From Candidatus Tyloplasma litorale (lineage in GTDB: Bacteria; Bacillota_I; Bacilli_A; Mycoplasmatales; Hepatoplasmataceae): DNA of 64,000 nt. Each line of letters begins with the position of its first letter. Position 1 is the first letter of the stretch. The notes beneath the pieces are model-generated. The model was given only the letters and a program-made list of their open reading frames with translations, was not told the origin of the DNA and made no database searches. This document shows positions 46,529-64,000 of this stretch, piece after piece. Location: positions 372,001-436,000 of the forward strand of contig AP027078.1 of assembly GCA_027943885.1 (NCBI GenBank), given 5' to 3'. The translations under genes were made by a program, and so were the position numbers.

Positions 46529-47728
46529 TTAAACAAATAATAAATAAAATGCAATTAAAATAAAGAGTTCAAATATTGTTAAAATTATCGATATTTTTTT
46601 TCAATCTAAAGAATCATTTAATTCAAAAATAAGATCATCAAATTGAATTCATTTTTCATTATCAACAGAAGCCTCAGTAATTTCATAAGTACTTCCTCTT
46701 CCTAAACCTGAAATTGTATAATAAGCTTCTGTTTCATCAATTGATGTTGAATCATAAGTTAATTCTATTTTGTCAATTGAATTTGTTGTTGTTAAATTTT
46801 CATCATATCCTTTAAGATGAAGAATTAAATTATTTGGATCAATATTTGCTGTTGAGAAATATACTTTAATTTGGACAGATGAATTTGTAATGGAACTATC
46901 AATAACTTCAATATTATAAATTTCCGCTGGTGCTTCTAATGTTGTAAATGATAAATCAATATTTGTTAATTCATCATTAATTCCTGCACTAGTGATTGTA
47001 TATTGTGTATTTGATTCTAATCCTGAAATTGTATAATAGACTTCTGTTTCATTAGTAGAATCATAAGTTAAAGTTATTCCATCAACTGGAGTTGATGTTG
47101 TTAAATTATCATCATAACTTTCAAGATAAAGAATTAAATCATCTTCATCAAAGTTTGTTGTTGAAGTATTGACTTTAATTTGAACAGAAGAATCTGTAAT
47201 TGAATCTTCAATAATTTCTATAGATTGAACATTTAATATTTCTGTTGTAAATGTTAAGTTAATATCTTTTAATTCACCATTAATTTCTGCACTAGTGATT
47301 GTGTATTGTGTATTTGATTCTAACCCTGAAATTGTGTAATAAATTTCTGTTCCATCAGTAAAATCATGAGTTAGAGTTATCCCATCCACTGGAGTTGATG
47401 TTGTTAGGTCATCATCATGACCAGCAAGGTGAAGAATTAATTCATCTTCATCAAAATTTGTTGTTGAAGTAATAACTTTGATTTGGGCAGATGAAGATAT
47501 GATTGAATCATTAACAACTTCAATAGAATCAATTGGTGATGATTCTTCATTTTCACTAAAAGAAAAATCAAAATTATTAAATTGTTTTTCATTATCATAT
47601 TCTTTTATTTCCATATTATTAGAAGGATAAATATCAAAATTATTTCCCTTTAAAATATTAATAGTAAAAGATATAAATAATAAGAAAATAAATAAAACTA
47701 TTAAAAATAATAAAATCCTTTTAAGCAT
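46529..47728 (-). CDS. FN3-like repeat surface protein, short member
   Basis: A 399-aa protein with a long N-terminal hydrophobic segment (MLKRILLFLIVLFIFLLFIS) without lipobox Cys. Then come an Asn/Asp-rich linker, three copies of the 103-aa repeat (cores such as SSVQIKVNTSTTNFDEDDLI and YYTISGLESNTQYTITSA), and a C-terminal hydrophobic helix (IILTIFELFILIAFYLLFV) with no basic tail. The repeat's L-x-x-x-T-x-Y-x-I pattern is fibronectin-III-like. The ATG at 47728 lies six bases after a perfect TATAAT; further upstream is a T16 tract. It is the smallest and last of four paralogs; expression is probably variable. Confidence 0.82.
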
Positions 47729-47734
47729 AATTTT

Positions 47735-47770
47735 ATTATAATAGAAAAAAAAAAAAAAAAGAATAATCAA
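47735..47770 (-). promoter_or_regulatory. Promoter with T16 spacer, overlapping the upstream terminator
   Basis: On the minus strand TTGATT (47765-47770), four bases, a T16 tract (47745-47760), four bases, TATAAT (47735-47740), six bases, ATG. The -35 to -10 distance is 24; loss of about seven Ts would give the optimal 17. The T-tract is also the tail of the preceding gene's terminator. Confidence 0.55.
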
Positions 47771-47782
47771 AGAAATTTATTC
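47745..47782 (-). terminator. Terminator after the 2279-aa repeat protein gene
   Basis: Arms GAATAA and TTATTC with a 10-base loop are followed by T16 on the minus strand. The stem is short but the T-run is the longest in the window. Confidence 0.6.
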
Positions 47783-47795
47783 AATTTTTCTTTTT

Positions 47796-50700
47796 TTATT
47801 TTCTTAGTTTTTTAAATAAATATCAATTAAATAAAATCAATAGAATAATTGCTATTATTATCATTATTAAAACAATTAAATCTAAAGAATTATTTAATGT
47901 TCAAAATGTTTCATCAACATTTATTTCGGAAGAATTAAGTTTTGCACTAGTGATTGTGTATTCTGATTCTTCTTCCAATCCTGAAATTGTATACATAATT
48001 TCTGTGCCATTATTTGAATCACAAGTTAATTTTGCACCATGAATTGAATTTGTTGTTGATAAACTACCATTTATATGTCCTTCAATAAGAAGAATTAAAT
48101 TATCTTCATCAAAGTTTGTTGTTGAAGTTATCACTTTAATTTGAGCAGATGAGTCTGTGATTGAATCTGTGACTATTTCAATAGAATCAAGTTTTGCTGG
48201 TATTTCTAATGTTGTGAATGGTACATCCATATCTATTGAATCATCATTAATTTCTGCATTATTAATTATATATGTTGTATTTGATTCTAATCCTGAAATT
48301 GTGTAGTAAATTTCTGTTTCGTTTGTTGAATCATGAGTTAGAGTTATTCCATCAACTGTAGTTAATGTTGTTAGGTCACCATCATGACCAGTAAGATGAA
48401 GAATTAAATCATTTTCATCAAAGTTTGTTGTTGAAGTTGTGACTTTAATTTGGGCAGATGAATCTGTGACTGAATCTGTGACAACTTGAATAGAATTAAC
48501 TATTGCTGCTATTTCTAATGTTGTGAATGATACAGCTGTACTTAATTCACCATCATTATCATTAAGTTTTGCACTAGTGATTGTGTATTCTGTACCTGAT
48601 TCTAATTCTGAAATTGTGTAATAAATTTCTGTTTCATTTGTTCAATCATAAGTTAGAGTTATTCCATCAATTGGAGTTGATGTTGTTAGATCACCATCAT
48701 GACCAGCAAGATGAAGAATTAATTCATCTACATCAAAGTTTGTTGTTGAAGTTGTGACTTTAATTTGGGCAGAAGAATCTGTAATTGAATTATCAATAAC
48801 TTCGATAGAATCAACTATTGCTGGTGTTTCTAATGTTGTGAATGGTACATTCATATCTATTGAATCATCATTAATTTCTGCACTAGTGATTATGTATTCT
48901 GTATCTGCTTCCAGTCCTGAAATTGTGTATGTAATTTCTGTTTCGTTTGTTGAATCATGAGTTAGAGTTATTCCATCAATTGAAGTTGATGTTGTTAGAT
49001 CACCATCATGATTAGCAAGATGAAGAATTAATTCATCTGCATCAAAGTTTGTTGTTGAAGTTGTGACTTTAATTTGGGCAGAAGAATCTGTAATTGAATT
49101 ATCAATAACTTCGATAGTAGTAACTTCTGCTGGTGATATCAATGTTGTAAATGATAGATTAATATCTTCTGTTTCAATGTCATTAAGTTTTGCACTAGTG
49201 ATTGTATATTCTGTATCAGATTCTAATTTTGAAATTGTGTAATAAATTTCTGTTTCGTTTGTTGAATCATGAGTTAGAGTTATTCCATCAACTGGGTTTG
49301 ATGTTGTTAGATCTCCGTCATGACCTTCAAGATGAAGTACTAAATCATTTTCATCAAATTCTGTTGTTGAAGTTGTGACTTTAATTTGGGCAGAAGAATC
49401 TGTAATTGAATTATCAACAACTTCGATAGTAGTAACTTCTGCTGGTGATATCAATGTTGTAAATGATAGATTAATATCTTCTGTTTCAATGTCATTAAGT
49501 TTTGCACTAGTGATTGTGTATTCTGTATTAGATTCTAATCCTGAAATTGTGTAATAAATTTCTGTTTCGTTTGTTGAATCGTGAGTTAGAGTTATTCCAT
49601 CAATTGGAGTTGATGTTGTTAGATCACCATCATGATTAGCAAGATGAAGAATTAATTCATCTACATTAAAGTTTGTTGTTGAAGTAATGACTTTAATTTG
49701 GGCAGAAAAATCTGTAATTGAATCATCAATAACTTCGATAGAATCAACTATTGCTGGTATTTCTAATGTTGTGAATGGTACATTCATATCTATTGAATCA
49801 TCATTAATTTCTGCATTAGTGATTGTGTATTCTGTATCTGGTTCTAGTCCTGAAATTGTGTATATAATTTCTGTTTCACCAGTGGAATCATGAGTTAGAG
49901 TTATTCCATCAACTGAAGTTGATGTTGTTAGATCGCCATCATGATTAGCAAGATGAAGAATTAAATTATCTTCATCAAAGTTTGTTGTTGAAGTAATGAC
50001 TTTAATTTTAGCAGAAGAATCTGTAATTGATTCATCAATAACTTCAATAGAATCAACTATTGCTGGTATTTCTAATGTTGTGAATGGTACATTCATATCT
50101 ATTGAATCATCATTAATTTCTGCACTAGTGATTATGTATTCTGTATCTGCTTCTAGTCCTGAAATTGTGTATGTAATTTCTGTTTCATTAGTGGAATCAT
50201 GAGTTAGAGTTATTCCATCAATTGGAGTTGATGTTGTTAGATCACCATCATGACCAGCAAGATGAAGAATTAATTCATTTTCATCAAAGTTTGTTGTTGA
50301 AGTAGTGACTTTAATTTGGGCAGAAGAATCTGTAATTGAATTATCAATAACTTCAATAGAATCAACTGTTGATGGTGTTTCTAATGTTGTGAATGGTACA
50401 TTCATATCTATTGAATCATCATTAATTTCTGCATTAGTGATTGTGTATTCTGTATCTGGTTCTAGTCCTGAAATTGTGTATGTAATTTCTGTTTCATTAG
50501 TGGAATCATGAGTTAGAGTTATTCCATCAATTGGAGTTGATGTTGTTAGATCACCATCATGACCAGCAAGATGAAGAATTAATTCATCTGCATCAAAGTT
50601 TGTTGTTGAAGTTGTGACTTTAATTTGGGCAGAAGAATCTGTAATTGATTCATCAATAACTTCAATAGAATCAACTGTTGATGGTGTTTCTAATGTTGTG

Positions 50701-53700
50701 AATGATTGATTGATATCTGTTACATTAGAAGTTGTTTCAGTACTTTCTATTGTATATTTTGTATTTGCTTCTAATCCTGAAATTGTGTAATAAACTTCCA
50801 TACCATCTACTGAATCATAAATTAAGCTTATATCACCAATTGGATTTGTTGTTGATAACCCTTCATCATATCCTGCAAGATGAATAACTAAATCAGATTT
50901 ATTAACTCATCAAGAAGTTGATGAAACAGTAACACCAATTTGAACACTTGAATCTGTGATTGAATCGTCCACAATTTCTATAGATTCAACCTTTGATATT
51001 TCTGTTTTAAATGATAAACCAATATTTGTTGAAATATCATTAATTTCCGCACTAGTAATTACATACGTTGTATCTTCTTCTAAACCTTCAATTGTATAAT
51101 AAGCTTCTGTTTTATTAGTGCTTGTTGAATTATAAATTAAACTAATACCATCAACTGGATTTGATGTTGTTAAATCACCACTATGTTCAACAAGATGAAG
51201 AATTAAATCATTTGGATCAAAATATTCTGATGAATAAGAAACTTTAATTTTAATTGCTGAATCTGTTGGTGTTGGAAAACTAGTGTCAATTTCTATAGAT
51301 TCAACTATTGCTAATGATTCTGTTGTAAATGATAAATTAATATCTTCTGTTAAATTAGAAGTTGTTTCAGCACTTTCAATTATATATGTTGTATCTGGTT
51401 CTAGTCCTGAAATTGTATAATAAACTTCCATACCATCTGTTGAGTCATAAATTAAATTTATACTACCATCATTAATTGAATTTGTTGTTGATAAACCTTC
51501 ATCATAACCTTCAAGATGTAAAATTAAATCAGATTCATCAACTCATCAAGATGTTGATGAAACATTAACTTTAATTTGAACACTTGAATCTGTAATTGAA
51601 CCATCCACAATTTCTATAGATTCAACTACTGATATTTTTGTTGTGAATGATAAGTCAATATTTGTTTCAACATCATTCATTTCTGCAGTGGTAATTGTGT
51701 ATTCTGTATCTGGTTCTAGTCCTGAAATTGTGTAAGTAGCTTGAACACCATTAATATATGTTGAATTATATTCTAAACTTATGCCATCAACTGGATTTGA
51801 TGTTGTTAGACCTTCATCATAATCTTCAAGATGAAGAACTAAATCATCTTCATCAAAGTCATCTGATGAATAAGAAACAATAATTTTAGCTTCTGAATCT
51901 GTAGGATAATCATCAGCCATTTCTATAGATTCAACTACTGTTAATATTCTTGTTTTAAATGATAAGCCAATATTTGTTTCAACATCATTAATTTTTGCAC
52001 TAGTGATTACATATTTTGTATCTTCTTCTAAACCTTCAATTGTATAATAAGCTTCTGTTGAATCATCATCACTTGTTGAATTATAAGTTAAAGTCATACC
52101 ATTAACTGGATTTGATGTTGTTAAATCACGTTCAACAAGATCTACATTAAGAATTAGATTATTTGGATCAAAATATTCTGATGAATAAGAAACTTTAATT
52201 TTAACACTATTTGGTGTTGGGTAACCATCTACAATTTCTATAGATTCAACTATTGCTAATGATTCTGTTGTAAATGATAAATTGATGTCTTCTGTTAAAT
52301 TAGAAGTTGTTTCAGCACTCTCAATTGTGTATGTTGTATCTGATTCTAGTCCTGAAATTGTATAATAAACTCCCATACCATCTATTGAATCATAAGCTAA
52401 AGTTATACTATTATCATTAATTGAATTTGTCGTTGATAATCCTTCATCATAACCTTCAAAATAAAGAATTAAATCAGATTCATCAACTCATCAAGATGTT
52501 GATGAAACATTAACTTTAATTTGAACACTTGAATCTGTGATTGAACCATCCACAATTTCTATAGATTCAACTTCTGATATTTCTGTTGTAAATGATAAGT
52601 CAATATTTATTTCAATATCATTAATTTCTGCAGTAGTGATTGTGTATTTTGTATCTTGTTCTAGTCCTAAAATTGTGTAACTAACTTGAATTCCATTAGC
52701 ATATGTTGAATTATATTTTAAACTTATGCCATCAACTGGATTTGATGTTGTTAGATCGCCATCATGACCTTCAAGATGAAGAACTAAATCATCTTCATCA
52801 AAGTCATCTGATGAATAAGAAACAATAATATTAGCTTCTGAATCTGTAGGATAATGTTCAGCCATTTCTATAGATTCAACTACTGTTAATATTCTTGTTT
52901 TAAATGATAAGTCAATATTTGTTTCAACATCATTAATTTTTGCACTAATGATTACATATTTTGTATCTTCTTCCAAACCATCAATTGTATAATAAGCTTC
53001 TGTTGGATCATCATCACTTGTTGAATTATAAGTTAAAGTTATACCATTTACTGGATTTGATGTTGATAAATCACGTTCAACAAGATCTACATTAAGAATT
53101 AGATTATTTGGATCAAAATATTCTGATGAGTAAGAAACTTTAATTTTAACACTATTTGGTGTTGGATAACCATCTACAATTTCTATAGATTCAACTATTG
53201 TTGATGATTCTGTTGTAAATGATAAATTAATGTCTTCTGTTAAAGTAGAAGTTATTTCAGCACTCTCAATTGTGTATTCTGTATCTGGTTCTAGTCCTGA
53301 AATTGTATATATAATTTCTGTTTCATTAGTTGAATCATGAGTTAAAGTTATAGTACCATCATTAATTGAATTTGTTGTTGATAGTCCTTCATCATAACCT
53401 TCAAAATAAAGAATTAAATCAGATTCATCAAATCATCAAGATGATGTTAATGAAGGGTCCAAATTAACAGTAACTTTAATTTGAACACTTGAATCCGTAA
53501 TTGAACCATCCACAATTTCTATAGATTCAACTTCTAATATTTCTGTTGTAAATGATAAGTCAATATCTGTTTCAATATCATTAATTTCTGCAGTTGTGAT
53601 TGTGTATTCTGTATCTGCTTCTAAACCTTCAATTGTGTAACTAACTCGAATTCCATCAACATATGTTGAATTATATTTTAAACTTATGCCATCAACTTTG

Positions 53701-54635
53701 CTTGATGTTGATAAACCTTCATCATATCCATCAAGATGAAGAATTAAATCATCTTCATCAAAATCATTTGATGAATAATGAACAATAATTTTGGCTGATG
53801 AATCTGTAGTATAATTATCTTCCAATTCTATATATTCAACTTTTGTGGCTTCTTTAGTTGTTGTGAATGATACATTAAAATCTGTTGAAGTAGAATCAAC
53901 TTCTGCACTTTCAATTGTGTATGTTGTTTCTGGAGATAAACCTGTGATATCAAAATAAATTGTTTGACTATCATGTGTTGAAATATAATTTAAACCTATA
54001 CCATCAACTGAATTTGTTGTTGATATTCCTCCATCATGTCCTTCAAGATGAATTGCTATATCATCAATATCAAAATCATCTGATGATAATTTAACTATAA
54101 TTCTAGCTGTTGAATCTGTAATTAATTCATCGACCATTTCTATAGATTCAATTTTTGTTTCATCTACTTCTGGTTCTAAAGATTTTGTTGTAAATGATAA
54201 ATTAACATCTTCAACATCAGAACCAATTTGAGCAGAAATGATTGTATATTCTGTATCTGGTTCTAGTCCTGAAATTGTATAATAAAACTCCACTCCACTA
54301 CCATAATCAAGAGTTAGAGTTATTCCATCAACAGGAGCTGATGTTGTTAGATTTCCATCATGACCAGCAAGGTGAAGAATTAAATTTTCTCCTTCAACAT
54401 TGTTATTTGATGAATCATAAATAACATAAATTTGAGCACTTGAATCTGTAATACTATCTTCAACAATATAAACATTTTTAATAGTAGGAGCAGTATATCT
54501 ATTATCATAAGAAACATGAGAAGCATCACTAAAAGTATTATTTTCTGGAGTAGTTTCTGAAATAGTTAAAACAGAAAATACAAAAATAAATGGAATAAAT
54601 ATAATTGTTAAAAGTAATATTATTTTTTTCAACAT
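47796..54635 (-). CDS. Giant FN3-like repeat surface protein (21 repeats)
   Basis: A 2279-aa protein, continuous only with TGA as Trp. It starts MLKKIILLLTIIFIPFIFVF (signal/anchor) and ends with a hydrophobic helix plus basic tail (NWYLFKKLRK), so it should be anchored at the C-terminus with most of the chain outside. About 21 repeats of 100-110 aa follow one another. The N-terminal half has diverse repeats, including a three-domain superunit present three times (about 53.5, 52.6 and 51.6 kb), one domain of which has a WW pair from two TGA codons. The C-terminal nine are nearly identical, with a 309-bp period. No cysteines occur in the repeats. Adhesion is a reasonable guess. Confidence 0.85.
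48642..50801. repeat. 309-bp tandem repeat block in the 2279-aa gene
   Basis: Seven or so closely similar 309-bp units. Landmarks such as ATTTGGGCAGAAGAATCTGT and GCACTAGTGATT recur every 309 bases. Identity is high enough for recombination. Confidence 0.9.
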
Positions 54636-54644
54636 AACAACAAT

Positions 54645-54671
54645 ATTTTACCATTTAAAAAAAAAAGCCAA
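54645..54671 (-). promoter_or_regulatory. Promoter of the 2279-aa gene, overlapping a terminator
   Basis: TTGGCT (54666-54671, in the terminator stem), a 15-base spacer that begins with most of the T10 tract, and TAAAAT (54645-54650) nine bases before the ATG. The predicted leader is only a few bases. Confidence 0.45.
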
Positions 54672-54688
54672 ATGTATTTGGCTTTTTT
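54657..54688 (-). terminator. Terminator after the 1886-aa repeat protein gene
   Basis: Arms AAAAAAGCCAAA and TTTGGCTTTTTT with a 4-base loop. The T10 tail runs into the promoter of the next gene. Confidence 0.9.
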
Positions 54689-54694
54689 ATATTT

Positions 54695-57600
54695 TTATTT
54701 TTTTAATTTTCTAAATAAATAATAATTCATTAAGATTAATAAAATAATTACTATTATTATTAATATTAAAATAAATATATTTAAAGAGCTATTTAATGTT
54801 TGAAATGCCTCATCAACTTCTACTTCAAGAGAATTAAGTTTGGCACTAGAAATTTTGTATTCTGATTCCTCATCTAATCCTGAAATTGTGTAATAAATTT
54901 CTGTTCCATTTGTTGAATCATGAATTAATTTTACACCATTAATTGAAGATGATGTTGTTAAGATACCATTTGTATTTCCTTCAAGAAAAATAGATAAATC
55001 ATTTTCATCAAAGTTTGTTGTTGTTACAACAACTTTAATTTGAGCAGATGAATCTGTGATTGATCCATCAACAATTTCAATATAATCAATTATTGCTGGT
55101 ACTTCTAATGTTGTGAATGTTGCATTCATAGTAAGTCAATCATCATTTTCATTAAATTTTGCATAAGTAATAGTGTATGTTGTTTCTGCTTCTAGTCCTG
55201 AAATTGTATAATAAATTTCTGTTTCGTTTGTTGAATCATGAGTTAGAGTTATTCCATCAATTGGATTTGATGTTGTTAGATCTCCGTCATGATTAGCAAG
55301 ATGAAGAATTAAATTATCCTCATTAAAATTTGTTTTTGAAGTAGTCACTTTAATTTGGACAGATGAATCTGTCAATGAATCATAAAGAATTTCAATAGTA
55401 GAAATTTTTGCTGGTGCTTCTAATGTTGTAAATGTTGTATTTGTGTTGTATAAATCATCATTATCATTAAATTTTACACCAGTAATAGTGTATTTTGTTT
55501 CTGCTTCTAACCCTGAAATTGTGTATGTAATTTCTGTTTCATTTGTTGAATCATGAGTTAGAGTTATTCCATCATCAATTGGGTTTGAAGTTGTTAGATC
55601 TCCGTCATGACCTTCAAGATGAAGCACTAAATCATTTTCATCAAATTCTGTTGTTGAAGTAGTCACTTTAATTTGGACAGATGAATCTGTGATTGAATTA
55701 TGAAGAACTTCAATAGTAGAAACTTCTGCTGGTGCTTCTAATGTTGTAAATGTTATGTTGATATCTGTTGTTTCAATATCATTAAGCTTTGCAGTAGTGA
55801 TTGTATATTCTGTATCTGATTCTAAACCTGAAATTGTGTACATAATTTCTGTTTCACTTAGTAAACCATCATTAGTTAAAGTTATTCCATCAATTGGGTT
55901 TGAAGTTGTTAGATCTCCGTCATGACCTTCAAGATGAAGCACTAAATCATTTGGATCAAAATTTGTTGTTGAAGTATTTACTCCAATCATAACAGATGAA
56001 TCTGTGATTGAACCATCAAGAACTTCAATAGTAGTAACTTCTGCTGGTGTTTCTGATGTTGTAAATATTGTATTAATATCTGTTGTTTCAATATCATTAA
56101 GCTTTGCAGTAGTGATTGTATATTCTGTATCTGATTCTAAACCTGAAATTGTGTATGTAATTTCTGTTTCATTTGTTGAATCATGAGTTAGAGTTATTTC
56201 ATCAACTGGGTTTGAAGTTGTTAGATCTCCGTCATGACCTTCAAGATGAAGTACTAAATCATTTTCATCAAATTCTGTTGTTGAAGTAGTTACTTTAATT
56301 TGGACAGAAGAATCTGTAATTGAACCATCAATAACTTCAATAGTAGTAACTTCTGCTGGTGATATCAATGTTGTAAATGATAGATTAATATTTTCTGTTT
56401 CAACATCATTAAGCTTTGCACTAGTGATTGTATATTCTGTATCTGATTCTAAACCTGAAATTGTGTATGTAATTTCTGTTTCATTTGTTGAATCATGAGT
56501 TAGAGTTATTTCATCAACTGGGTTTGAAGTTGTTAGATCTCCGTCATGACCTTCAAGATGAAGCACTAAATCATTTTCATCAAATTCTGTTGTTGAAGTA
56601 GTTACTTTAATTTGGACAGAAGAATCTGTAATTGAATTATCAATAACTTCGATAGTAGTAACTTCTGCTAGTGATACCAATGTTGTAAATGTTGTGTTGA
56701 TATCTGTTATTTCAACATCATTAAGCTTTGCACTAGTGATTGTATATTCTGTATTTGCTTCTAGCCCTGAAATTGTGTATGTAATTTCTGTTTCATTTGT
56801 TGAATCATGAGTTAGAGTTATTTCATCAACTGGGTTTGAAGTTGTTAGATCTCCGTCATGACCTTCAAGATGAAGTACTAAATCATTTTCATCAAATTCT
56901 GTTGTTGAAGTAGTTACTTTAATTTGGACAGAAGAATCTGTAATTGAATTATCAATAACTTCGATAGTAGTAACTTCTGCTAGTGATACCAATGTTGTAA
57001 ATGTTGTGTTGATATCTGTTATTTCAACATCATTAAGTTCTGCGCTAGTGATTGTATATTCTGTATTAGATTCCAATCCTGAAATTGTGTATGTAATTTC
57101 TGTTTCATTAGTTGAATCATGAGTTAGAGTTATTCCATCAACTGGGTTTGAAGTTGTTAGATCTCCGTCATGACCTTCAAGATAAAGTACTAAATCATTT
57201 TCATCAAATTCTGTTGTTGAAGTAGTTACTTTAATTTGGACAGAAGAATCTGTAATTGAATTATCAATAACTTCGATAGTAGTAACTTCTGCTGGTGTTT
57301 CTGATGTTGTAAATATTGTATTAATATCTGTTGTTTCAATATCATTAAGCTTTGCACTAGTGATTGTATATTCTGTATTTGCTTCTAGCCCTGAAATTGT
57401 GTATGTAATTTCTGTTTCATTTGTTGAATCATGAGTTAGAGTTATTCCATCAACTGGGTTTGAAGTTGTTAAATCTCCGTCATGACCTTCAAGATGAAGC
57501 ACTAAATCATTTTCATCAAATTCTGTTGTTGAAGTAGTCACTTTAATTTGGACAGAAGAATCTGTGATTGAACCATCAATAACTTCGATAGTAGTAACTT

Positions 57601-60355
57601 CTGCTAGTGATACCAATGTTGTAAATGATAAATTAATATCTGTTGAATTAGAAGTTGTTTCAGCACTTTCTATTGTATATTCTGTATTTGCTTCTAATCC
57701 TGAAATTGTGTAATAAACTTCCATACCATCTACTGAATCATAAGTTAAGCTTATATCACCAATTGGATTTGTTGTTGATAACCCTTCATCATATCCTGCA
57801 AGATGAATAACTAAATCAGATTTGTTAACTCATCAAGAAGTTGATGAAACAGTAACACCAATTTGAACACTTGAATCTGTAATTGAATCTTCAACCATTT
57901 CTATAGATTCAACTTTTGATATTTCTGTTTTGAATGATAAAGTAATATTTGTTTGAACATCATTAATTTTTTCACCAGTAATTACATACATTGTATCTTC
58001 TTCTAAACCTTCAATTGTGTAATAAGCTTCTGTTTTATTAGCACTTGTTGAATTATAAATTAAACTAATTCCATCAACTGGAGTTGATGTTGTTAAGTCA
58101 CCACTAACACCAGCAATTTGAAGAGCTAAATCATTTGGATCAAAATATTCTGATGAATAAGAAACTTTAATTTTAATTGCTGAATCTGTTGGTGATGGAA
58201 GACTAGTATCAAGTTCTATATTATCAACTATTGCTAATTCTTCTAATGTTGTGAATGAATAATCAACAGTTGTTATATTTGATGTAATTTCAGCACTTTT
58301 TATTGTGTATTCTGTACCTGCTTCTAAGCCAGAAATTGTTCATTCAGTTACAATTTCAGTATTTTCATTATGTCTACCATTATATTCTAAACTAATACCA
58401 TCAACTGGGTTTGATGTTGTTAGACCTTCAGCATATCCATCAAGATAAAGAGTTAAATCATCTTCATGAAGTCATCATTCTACTTGTGAAGCAATAATAT
58501 TAATATCAACAGATGAAGTTGTGATTGCATCATCAGCATCATCAACTTCAATATATTCAACTTCAACCATATCTGTTCTAAATCATAAATCGATACTTGT
58601 TTCAATATCATTGATTTCTGCAGTTTCTATTGTGTATTGTGTACCTTGTTCTAAACCAGAAATTGTATAATAAGCTTCTGTTTTATTAGAACTTGTTGAA
58701 TCATAAGTTAGAGTTATTCCATCAACTGGAGTTGATGTTGTTAGACCTTCATCATAACCTTCAAAATAAAGAACTAAATCATCTTCGTCAAATTCTGCTG
58801 ATGAGTAAGAGACTTTAATATCAGCAGTTTCATTTGTTGGATAACCATCTTCAAGTTCTATAGTATCAACCATTGTTAAAACTTCTTCTATTGTTGTGAA
58901 TGATACATCAAGTTCTGTTGACTTAGAATCAACTTCTGCACTTTCGATTGTGTATGTTGTTTCTGGAGATAAACCTGTGATATCAAAATAAATTGTTTGA
59001 TCATCATGAGTTGAAATTCATTCTAAACCTATACCATCAACTGAATTTGTTGTTGATATTCCGCCATCATGTCCTTCAAGATGAATAGCTATATCATCAA
59101 TATCAAAATCATTTGATGATAAGTTAACTATAATTCTAGCTGTTGAATCTGTAATTAATTCATCAACCATTTCTATTGATTCAACTTTTGTTGATGTATC
59201 AGGAGTTGTTGTAAATGATACATTAAGATTTGTTGAAGTAGAATCAACTTTTGCACTTTCGATTGTGTATGTTGTTTCTGGAGATAAACCTGTGATATCA
59301 AAATAAATTGTTTGATCATCATGAGTTGAAATTCATTCTAAACCTATACCATCAACTGAATTTGTTGTTGATATTCCGCCATCATATCCTTCAAGATGAA
59401 TAGCTATATCATCAATATCAAAATCATTTGATGATAAGTTAACTATAATTCTAGCTGTTGAATCTGTAATTAATTCATCAACCATTTCTATTGATTCAAC
59501 TTTTGTAGGTTCTTTAGTTGTTGTGAATGATACATTAAGACTAGTTGAAGTAGAATTAACTTCTGCACTTTCGATTGTGTATGTTGTTTCTGGATCTAAA
59601 CCTGTTATATCAAAATAAACCGATTTATTATTAGTGGTTTTAATATAGTCTAAACCTATACCATCAACTGAATTTGATGTTGTTATTTTTCCACTATGTC
59701 CTGCAAGATGAATACCTATATTACTATATTCAAAATTAGTTGTTGATAAATTAACTATAATTCTAGCTGTTGAATCTGTAATTTGATTGTCGACCATTTC
59801 AATAGAATTAACTTTTGCTGCTGAAGGTGTTGATGGTTCTGTTGTTCATTCTTTATCTGTTGTAAAAGATTTATTAATACTTGTCGAAATGCCATTAACT
59901 TCTGCACTTTCGATTGTGTATGTTGTTTCTGGGGATAAACCAATTAATCAAAAATAAACTTGTGTATTGTTTTCAGTTTTTTCATAGCTTAAATACATAC
60001 CATCAACTGAATTTGATGTTGATATTTTTCCACTATGTCCTGCAAGATGAATACCTATATCACCAAGATCAAAATTAGATGTTGATAAATTAACTCTAAA
60101 ATATTTTGTTACAGCTCTGTCCAGACGTGAATTAAGGAAGAAATCTATAGATTCAACTTGTGCTAAAGCAGTTTTTTGATTAATATATGAATCTGAATTA
60201 TCTAAATCTTTATTTGAATTTGTATCATAAGAGGTATTAGAAATAGAATTAAAATTACCTTCCTCTGAAATATTTTTTGAAATATCAAAAATAAAAAATA
60301 TTGAGAAGAACGAAATTAATAATATTGTTGAAAATAAAATGATTTTTTTTAGCAT
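54695..60355 (-). CDS. Giant FN3-like repeat surface protein (17 repeats)
   Basis: An 1886-aa paralog with the same plan: MLKKIILFSTILLISFFSIF signal/anchor, a Ser/Asn-rich linker, about 17 repeats, and a C-terminal membrane helix with basic tail (MNYYLFRKLKK). The first repeats (60.3-58.9 kb) form a distinct subtype with DSTARIIVNLS cores and a VYFDITGLSPETTYTIES strand. From 57.7 to 55.1 kb there are nine closely similar repeats with EVTTIEVIDNSITDSSVQIK. A WW-containing repeat near 57.8 kb is almost identical in DNA to one near 50.9 kb in the neighbour, suggesting recombination. Read with code 4 it has no internal stops. Confidence 0.85.
55136..57724. repeat. About 309-bp tandem repeat block in the 1886-aa gene
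   Basis: Eight to nine similar units, most between 56.0 and 57.6 kb, that share the TTTGAAGTTGTTAGATCTCC landmark. They are more similar to each other than to the blocks in the neighbouring genes. Confidence 0.88.
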
Positions 60356-60364
60356 AATAATATT

Positions 60365-60370
60365 ATTATA
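60365..60370 (-). promoter_or_regulatory. -10 box of the 1886-aa repeat protein gene
   Basis: TATAAT nine bases before the ATG at 60355. No Shine-Dalgarno is seen; the predicted leader is about three bases. Confidence 0.55.
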
Positions 60371-60374
60371 TATG

Positions 60375-60414
60375 AAAAAAGAAAATTAAATTCATAATTT
60401 TAATTTTCTTTTTT
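60375..60414 (-). terminator. Terminator upstream of the 1886-aa gene
   Basis: Arms GAAAATTAAA and TTTAATTTTC, flanked by A6 and T7, with T6 after the stem on the minus strand. It ends four bases before TATAAT (60365-60370) of the 1886-aa gene. Confidence 0.75.
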
Positions 60415-60551
60415 TAATAAAATAAATAGATAAATAATTAATTAATATTTAATATTAATGCTTATACTTAAACTTGAAATTATATATACAACTATATTAT
60501 TAATTTTATCATTATATATTAAGGTAATGTTATATATTTAGTTTGATTTTG

Positions 60552-63500
60552 TTAAATTTGCATCATAGAATCATTTTTCATTGAAACATCCACAAATGAT
60601 AAATCTTTAATAAAATTATCATAAGTTGTAAATGATAAATCAATAGTTGTTTCATTACCATTAAGCTTTGCACTAGTGATTGTGTATGTTGTTCCTGATT
60701 CTAAGCCTGAAATTGTGTATATAATTTCTGTTCCGTTTGTTGAATCATGAGTTAAAGTTATTCCATCAACGGGAGTTGATGTTGTTAGGTCACCATCATG
60801 ATCAGCAAATTGAAGAGCTAAATCATCTGCATTAAAGTTTGTTGTTGAGGTAGTGACTTTAATTTGAGCAGAAGAATCTGTAGTTCAACCATCAATAATT
60901 TCAACATTATTAACTGTTGCTAAAGAGATTGTTGTTGTAAATGATACAGCAATAATTAATTCATGATCATTAATTTTTGCACTAATCATTGTGTATTCTG
61001 TATTTGCTTCTAATCCTGAAATTGTGTATATAATTTCTGTTTCATCAGTTGAATCATAAGTTAGAGTTATTCCATCAACTGGAGTTGATGTTGTTAGATA
61101 ATCATCATAACCAGCAAATTGAAGAACTAAATCATTTGGATCAAAGTTTGTTGTTGAGGTAGTAATTTTAAATTGGACAGAAGAATCTGTGATTGAATCT
61201 TCAATAATTTCAATATAATTAATTTCTGCTAAAGAGACTGCTGTTGTAAAAGATAAATCAATAGTTGTTTCAGTATCATTAAGTTTTGCACTAGTGATTG
61301 TATATTCTGTATCTGCTTCTAATCCTGAAATTGTGTAGTAAATTTCTGTTTCATCAGTTAAAAGACTAGTTAAAGTTATTCCATCAATTGGAGTTGATGT
61401 TGTTAGATCACCATCATGACCTTCAAGATGAAGAATTAAATCATCTGCATTAAAGTTTGTTGTTGAAGTAGTGACTTTAATTTGGGCAGAGGAATCTGTG
61501 ACTGAATCTGTGACAACTTGAATAGAGTTAACTATTGCAGGGGAGATTCCTGTTGTAAAGGATACATCAACAGTTGTTTCGTTACCATTAAGTTTTGCAC
61601 TAGTGATTGTATATGTTACTCCTGATTCTAATCCTGAAATTGTGTAGTAAATTTCTGTTTCATTTGTTGAATCATAAGTTAGAGTTATTCCATCAATTGG
61701 ATTTGATGTTGTTAGATCACCATCATGACCTTCAAGATGAAGAACTAAATCATCTGCATTAAAGTTTGTTGTTGAAGTAGTCACTTTAATTTGGGCAGAA
61801 GAATCTGTAACTGAATTAGTGATAACTTGAATAGAGCTAACTGCTGCTGGAGAGATTCCTGTTGTGAATGATACATCAACAGTTGTTTCAGTACCATTAA
61901 GTTCCGCACTAGTGATTGTGTATTGTGTCTCTTGTTCTAAACCTGAAATTGTGTATATGATTTCTGTTTCGTCAGTTGAATCATGAGTTAGAGTTATTCC
62001 ATCAACGGGAGTTGATGTTGTTAGATCACCATCATGATTAGCAAGATGAAGAATTAAATTATCTGCATTAAAGTTTGTTGTTGAAGTAGTGACTTTAATT
62101 TGGGCAGAAGAATCTGTGATTGAATCATTAACAACTTCAATGGAATTAACTACAGCAAGAGTAATTCCTGTTGTGAATGATACATCAACAGTTATTTCAT
62201 TACCATTAAGTTCTGCACTAGTGATTGTATATTGTGTATTTTGTTCTAAACCTGAAATTGTGTATATGATTTCTGTTTCGTCAGTTGAATCATGAGTTAG
62301 AGTTATTCCATCAACGGGAGTTGATGTTGTTAGATCACCATCATAACCTTCAAGATGAAGAACTAAATCATCTGCATTAAAGTTTGTTGTTGAAGTAGTG
62401 ACTTTAATTTGGGCAGAGGAATCTGTGATTGAATCATTAACAACTTCAATGGAATTAACTACAGCAAGAGTAATTCCTGTTGTAAAGGATACATCAACAG
62501 TTGTTTCAGTACCATTAAGTTTTGCACTAGTGATTGTATATTGTGTATTTTGTGCTAAACCTGAAATTGTGTATATAATTTCTGTTTCGTTTGTTGAATC
62601 ATGAGTTAGAGTTATTCCATCAACGGGAGTTGATGTTGTTAGATCACCATCATGATCTTCAAGATGAAGAACTAAATCATCTGCATTAAAGTTTGTTGTT
62701 GAAGTAGTGACTTTAATTTGGACAGAAGAATCTGTAACTGAATCATTAACAACTTCAATAGATTTAACTGTTGCTGAAGGAATTCCTGTTGTGAATGATA
62801 CATCAACAGTTGTTTCAGTACCATTAAGTTCTGCACTAGTGATTGTGTATTGTGTCTCTTGTTCTAAACCTGAAATTGTGTATGTAATTTCTGTTTTGTT
62901 TGTTGAATCATAAGTTAGAGTTATTCCATCAATTGGATTTGATGTTGTTAGATCACCATCATGACCTTCAAGATGAAGAACTAAATCATCTGTATTAAAG
63001 TTTGTTGTTGAAGTAGTGACTTTAATTTGGGCAGAAGAATCTGTGACTGAATCTGTGATAACTTGAATAGAGTTAACTACTGCAAGAGTAATTTCTGTTG
63101 TAAAGGATACATCAACAGTTATTTCATTACCATTAAGTTTTGCACTAGTGATTGTATATTGTGTGCCTTGTGCTAAACCTGAAATTGTGTAATAAACTTC
63201 TGTTTCACTAGTTGAGTCATGAGTTAAAGTTATTCCATCAATTGGAGTTGATGTTGTTAGATCACCATCATGATCAGCAAGGTGAAGAGCTAAATCATCT
63301 GCATTAAAGTTTGTTGTTGAATTAGTAACTTTAATTTGAACACTTGAATCTGTAATTGAATCATTAACAACTTCAATAGATTTAACTATCGCTGAAGGAA
63401 TTCCTGTTGTAAAGGATACATCAACAGTTGTTTCATTACCATTAAGTTCTACACTAGTGATTGTATATTGTGTATTTTGTGCTAAACCTGAAATTGTGTA

Positions 63501-64000
63501 TATAATTTCTGTTTCATTTGTTGAATCATAAGTTAGAGTTATTCCATCAACTGGAGTTGATGTCGTTAGATCACCATCATGACCATCAAGATGAAGAATT
63601 AAATCATCTGCATTAAAGTTTGTTGTTGAAGTAGTCACTTTAATTTGGGCAGAAGAATCTGTGACTGAATCATTAACAACTTCAACAGTATTAACTATTG
63701 CTAAAGAGATTGCTGTTGTAAAAGATAAATTAATATTATTTGTTGAAATGCCATTAAGTTTTGCACTAGTGATTGTATATTGTGTATTTTGTGTTAAACC
63801 TGAAATTGTGTATGTAATTTCTGTTCCACTAGTTGAATCATGAGTTAGAGTTATTCCATCAACAGGAGTTGATGTTGTTAAATCACCATCATGACCTTCA
63901 AAATGAAGAACTAAATCATCTGCATTAAAGTTTGTTGTTGAAGTAGTGACTTTAATTTGGGCAGAAGAATCTGTAATTGAATCTGTGACAACTTGAATAG
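60552..64000 (-). CDS. FN3-like repeat surface protein, N-terminus outside window
   Basis: At least 1148 aa, containing 11 visible repeats with a strict 309-bp period. They are highly alike (for example SSAQIKVTTSTTNFNADDLV, and TITSAELNG with small changes). It ends in KDLSFVDVSMKNDSMMQI directly after the last repeat, without the C-terminal hydrophobic helix seen in the three neighbours. So either it is released, it is held only by its N-terminus (not visible), or its 3' end has been lost. The 138 bases between the stop and the next terminator encode no convincing membrane segment. Confidence 0.82.
60860..64000. repeat. 309-bp tandem repeat block in the rightmost gene
   Basis: Ten full units spaced exactly 309 bases, continuing past the right edge. 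Markers such as TCTGCATTAAAGTTTGTTGT recur in each unit. Confidence 0.92.

Follow-up and report, generated by a model that had tools for sequence, protein, structure and literature searches.

What proteins are encoded by the long tandem array of repeats in the genome of 'Ca. Tyloplasma litorale' Fukuoka2020 (AP027078.1), a symbiont of isopods (PMC10928387), how do the repeats evolve, and what might the proteins do? The bacterium is tiny and wall-less, and its hosts are seashore woodlice. The locus and the core of its reading are already published and not new. In their treatment of these ORFs, Kawato et al. 2024 (PMC10928387) describe large tandem repetitive ORFs in this genome, including TYPL_3910, with three to four large ORFs per genome, a predicted β-sandwich that was called 'unique', a possible role in host adhesion and no similarity to the giant ORFs of Hepatoplasma. 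The array analysed here belongs to this class, consisting of tandem giant repetitive ORFs in the same genome. We add its extent, the assignment of its domain to the FN3 and DUF1410 families, its evolutionary mode and its membrane-segment anatomy. Our computations establish the array, the domain type, the membrane segments and the homogenisation of inner units; overall, they partly support the interpretation given in an earlier note on this DNA.

Layout and extent of the array

Read with genetic code 4 (TGA = Trp), the repeat region of the window, i.e. the whole 64,000-nucleotide stretch of DNA that was analysed (positions 372001-436000 of the single-contig genome), is packed with minus-strand ORFs, namely genes A, B and C and part of gene D; all features given with window coordinates below lie on this strand. 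Gene A (46529..47728; code-4 ORF 46529-47770 with the likely ATG at 47728) encodes ~399 aa with three units (A1-A3) and hydrophobic segments at the N- and C-terminus. ORF, Pfam and unit-HMM data define gene B (47796..54635; 2279 aa, 21 units) and gene C (54695..60355; 1886 aa, 17 units). The 3′ part of gene D (60552..64000) continues beyond the window, and the whole gene encodes 2592 aa with 23 units when read from a TTG, the likely ATG being at window position 68297. The remainder of D and genes E, F, G and H occupy the 18 kb beyond the window, up to genome position 454,298, where the array ends and adjoins a divergent Cas9-like gene. In total, the array comprises eight genes and 98 units over ~36 kb, which is 5.8% of the 615,622-bp genome.

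The unit HMM distributes these units as A 3, B 21, C 17, D 23, E 17, F 4, G 6 and H 7, with E-values down to 1e-47 to 1e-49, so that chance is no issue. Most units have a period of 309-312 bp and a length of ~103 aa. The window holds 51 complete units and one cut by its edge, in agreement with the about 50 copies of a 103-aa domain counted in the earlier note, whose observation of a repeat array is hence confirmed. The four tandem paralogs described there correspond to A, B, C and part of D, but their coordinates were incomplete and four more genes follow up to genome position 454,298. Likewise, the domain is cysteine-free, as had been claimed, in nearly all window units but not in B21, the only one with a cysteine.

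Six of the eight genes are intact and encode up to 2279 aa. Gene D lacks the final unit and the C-terminal transmembrane segment that its paralogs have, and its stop falls within a stretch that looks like the beginning of the final domain in these paralogs. Gene E is interrupted by two frame changes flanking a near-exact three-unit tandem duplication of ~930 bp (genome 440900-442800), whose copies match exactly over 302, 257, 96 and 286 bp, at offsets of 931, 930 and 929. Either a very recent exchange or an error of assembly may account for this duplication; as Illumina reads are shorter than its copies, polishing with short reads may not have worked at E. Given the missing C-terminal anchor of D and the two frameshifts in E, not all genes need be functional.

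Besides the array, several neighbouring elements were observed. An identical promoter-proximal stretch occurs at both G and H, and a fragment of the 5′ coding region of E lies upstream of G. The Cas9-like gene beside the array end spans genome 454426-457803, and beyond the window a very large CRISPR array (genome 457839-474423) contains ~249 repeats of a 36-bp unit and ~242 spacers over 16.6 kb; the core of one spacer matches the bacterium's own genome (L056 position ~1895). For H. crinochetorum Av, 35 spacers are reported.

Domain type and distant relatives

Proteins B (129.3 bits), C (79.8) and D (64.8) score above the gathering cut-off of the FN3 family PF00041 (25 bits), and A, with 21 bits, stays under it. 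Single units match PF00041 and PF07198 weakly, 14 and 15 of 91, respectively (for PF00041, at E <= 0.01). The best PDB sequence matches of the unit profile are fibronectin, DCC and neogenin. The AlphaFold2 model of the unit, based on the 91-unit alignment, shows seven strands (residues 4-10, 18-25, 36-39, 55-63, 66-72, 79-87 and 90-100, as read from strand positions, not strand pairing) with a pLDDT of 95.9 and a pTM of 0.87, and core positions are nearly invariant over the 91 units. The structure prediction of a single unit, proposed earlier as a check, has thus yielded a confident seven-strand model, but a Foldseek search of this model against the PDB gave no match at E <= 1e-3. The fold matches are mainly antibody-like and transglutaminase domains, the best in the PDB being transglutaminase 3 (TMq 0.62); with viral models, the top fold matches include two phage proteins, one FN3-named and the other a tail tube protein (TMq 0.60-0.62, rmsd 2.6-2.8 Å). 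From the family matches and the predicted strands, we read the unit as a probable derived FN3/Ig-type β-sandwich and not as an isolated 'unique' fold, which reconciles the published label with the sequence evidence. As such, the earlier description of the repeats as fibronectin-III-like holds at the level of family and PDB sequence matches and of the predicted strands, though the PDB fold search did not reach significance.

The single-unit query found no match outside the 'Ca. Tyloplasma litorale' genome in 40 relatives, and the scan of genome contigs found no close relative. The unit profile, in turn, matched weakly in other Hepatoplasmataceae, i.e. in Hepatoplasma genomes (606,194, 657,101 and 662,108 bp) and in a same-genus draft. 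In several of the related proteins, FN3-like domains come after RCC1-like propellers, mostly with a transmembrane segment. In hhalign, the unit aligned to the FN3-like domains of Hepatoplasmataceae with a probability of 97.1 (E 7e-11), compared to 0.2 for a reversed-sequence control. The presence of FN3-like relatives in Hepatoplasma proteins indicates that the domain arose before the genus. Among 59 genomes searched by profile, only that of 'Ca. Tyloplasma litorale' was found to have the homogenised array itself. Elsewhere in this genome, a second FN3-like repeat locus (585438-590251) encodes several nearly identical ~105-aa units and a C-terminal membrane segment, and seems to be interrupted where a frame change separates two overlapping ORFs.

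A further family, PF07198 (DUF1410), scores 65.9 bits in D (gathering cut-off 25.5) and 18 bits, under the cut-off, in C, A and B being unlisted; the unit aligned in hhalign to the DUF1410 domains of the mollicute genome G046 with a probability of 91.8. The analogy to Ureaplasma DUF1410-type proteins drawn in the earlier note is therefore borne out at the profile level, with the domains compared coming from G046 and not from Ureaplasma. A literature search for DUF1410 together with Ureaplasma gave no paper.

Homogenisation of inner units

Within the inner blocks of three genes, the units are more alike than between these blocks. Mean nucleotide identity is 0.912 in C9-C15 (55424..57607), 0.881 in B13-B20 (48210..50684) and 0.891 in D14-21, compared to 0.81-0.84 between the blocks, a difference reached by 0/10,000 label shuffles; in line with this, dS amounts to 0.15-0.18 inside these three blocks and 0.23-0.32 between them. 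The nearest unit comes from the same gene in 54/92 cases (16 expected) and is adjacent in 17 (2 expected). On the unit tree, gene labels require 30 changes, compared to 57 when shuffled. Many inner units cluster by gene there, and edge units cluster across genes (B21/C17, F4/H7/G5, E17/G6, D1/E1); supported cross-gene pairs are D14/E10, D4/H4, B12/C8, B11/C7 and B2/C3-C4. Units B3-B12 (50694..53846) form a three-unit super-repeat, with an identity of 0.872 at lag 3 and 0.70-0.76 at other lags. Furthermore, unit pairs of 86-95% identity contain exact tracts of 118-188 bp; for six pairs, these are significant in a column-weighted simulation (p <= 1e-4), and clustered mismatches fit better than uniform divergence.

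This pattern does not extend to whole genes. A gene-label rotation test, which preserves label runs, was not significant for whole genes (14/91 rotations as high), since edge units and the B3-B12 super-repeat track position, not gene. Homogenisation of whole genes was dropped on this ground. The silent-site mosaic test on blocks was clear for E alone (2/500 permutations as high) and weak or null elsewhere. We thus confine the claim of homogenisation to the inner blocks, where it is what unequal exchange and occasional conversion produce. Accordingly, the proposal in the earlier note that repeats are more alike within than between genes stands for the inner blocks but not for whole genes, and its suggestion of concerted evolution by unequal exchange or conversion is upheld for these blocks by identity, dS, the unit tree and the exact tracts.

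Proposed function and comparison with known systems

By hydropathy, a strongly hydrophobic N-terminal segment is present in all eight genes A-H (in B at 54561..54635, a signal peptide or anchor), and a C-terminal hydrophobic segment with a short tail in all except D. In B and C, the latter is a transmembrane segment with a basic tail (47799..47885, hydropathy 3.47 over 19 residues, and 54698..54784). The genome contains no match to the signal peptidase I family; hence, the N-terminal segment may stay as a second anchor, with both ends held in the membrane. Unlike lipoprotein surface antigens, the proteins have no lipobox cysteine, as the N-terminal regions analysed for A-H contain no cysteine. 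The N-terminal regions of D-H are divergent and were modelled with moderate confidence (pLDDT 78) as further β-rich domains, which could form fibre tips. A fold search with this head model gave weak matches alone (TM-scores up to ~0.3); the top-ranked one, the E. coli adhesin FdeC, was dropped as too weak for use.

Altogether, the anatomy is well supported, and it seems somewhat probable that the array encodes eight membrane-anchored extracellular fibrous proteins for host attachment or spacing. We infer surface display from the hydrophobic ends and the domain type. Each protein would start with an N-terminal hydrophobic export segment, continue with 3 to 23 FN3/Ig-type β-sandwich domains connected by few-residue linkers and end, except for D, in a C-terminal transmembrane helix that a short tail follows. 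The family, whose domain is older than the genus and has relatives in Hepatoplasma surface-type proteins, would have grown by gene duplication and by unit amplification within genes. Inner units would be kept alike per gene by unequal crossing-over and by conversion, both acting between 309-bp units that are in register, with first and last units remaining common to different genes. The relative Hepatoplasma is attached to the microvillous border via stalk-like appendages (PMC5033963), which makes long multivalent fibres a sensible candidate; their most likely job would be to attach the cell to the host brush border or to hold it at a distance from it. A host-contact role is plausible and was already proposed by Kawato et al. 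2024 (PMC10928387).

Alternatively, the array could be a reservoir for surface variation, in which unit gain and loss alter protein length and slippage in T tracts that precede the start codons switches genes on and off. The fresh near-exact duplication in E fits this reading, though it may be an assembly error. Tracts of T16 (47745..47760, just upstream of the TATAAT-like box and ATG of A), T10, T15 and T8 lie just 5′ of the TATAAT-like boxes of genes A, B, D and E, respectively, and of the 10 tracts of at least 12 T in the genome, all 15 or 16 long, three are in the array, one each 5′ of A, D and F. However, at A and B a terminator-like hairpin immediately precedes the tract (between C and B, an intrinsic-terminator-like hairpin with T10 at 54657..54686); two of the 10 directly follow rRNA-like ends, and several long tracts elsewhere come after rRNA-like ends or terminators, so that we keep T-tract phase variation as speculation. 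Nor are loops more variable than strands (1.17 and 1.18 bits), which disfavours loop-based antigenic variation. Taken as a whole, a variable coat appears unlikely. The TATAAT-like boxes, ~6-12 bases before the ATG (window 47728, 54635 and 60355, and upstream of D-H), suggest by their spacing that the A-H mRNAs may be nearly leaderless. A very doubtful extension would combine homogenised FN3 stalks of different lengths, gene-specific divergent tips, switching by the length of T tracts immediately 5′ of nearly leaderless promoters, and length change by in-register unit exchange into a self-renewing adhesive fibre system of an isopod symbiont.

Structural fibres resembling a cell envelope or cytoskeleton, or a protective coat, without a specific receptor, would agree with homogenised units lacking hypervariable loops, with the very high abundance of one domain and with β-rich D-H heads that show no obvious lectin or enzyme. 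Yet the divergent N-terminal regions of D-H look as a tip domain would, and relatives of the domain in other proteins occur together with RCC1-type propellers, so we rate this explanation as rather improbable. Least probable of all is a largely decaying or selfish expansion, in which unequal exchange multiplies repeats of little function: dN/dS between units of 0.5-1.0, the truncation of D, the frameshifts in E and the E fragment upstream of G would be expected, but not the large intact genes in a reduced genome or the near-invariant core positions. Anchored fibres for host contact are the reading we retain. They provide a testable candidate for how a gut mollicute of isopods holds on to the hepatopancreas brush border, and the locus is a clear example from bacteria of protein domains that evolve in concert within a strongly reduced genome, with a fold published as 'unique' now tied to FN3 and DUF1410.

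Compared with PF00041, the units resemble FN3 domains in scoring above the cut-off in B, C and D, in a conserved GLxxxTxY stretch and in their seven strands, and differ in being weak singly and in having no close PDB fold match. DUF1410 repeat proteins of mollicutes are alike in the above-cut-off score of D, the profile match and the giant multi-domain proteins of G046; the five domains taken from that genome, in contrast, are not homogenised (17-26% identical to the first of them); moreover, the Pfam model covers mainly the C-terminal half of the array unit. The Vlp proteins of M. hyorhinis and MBA of Ureaplasma are size- and phase-variable lipoproteins with short tandem repeats. The array shares with them tandem-repeat surface proteins, here predicted, and a homopolymer tract near the promoter, whereas its proteins have full domains and a C-terminal membrane segment and show no lipobox cysteine, and switching is putative. 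Closest are the large repetitive ORFs of Hepatoplasmataceae as presented by Kawato et al. 2024, with the same genome, tandem giant ORFs, β-sandwich and adhesion idea in common; our analysis differs in finding eight genes, FN3 by Pfam and, at the profile level, a resemblance of the unit to FN3-like domains in Hepatoplasma proteins.
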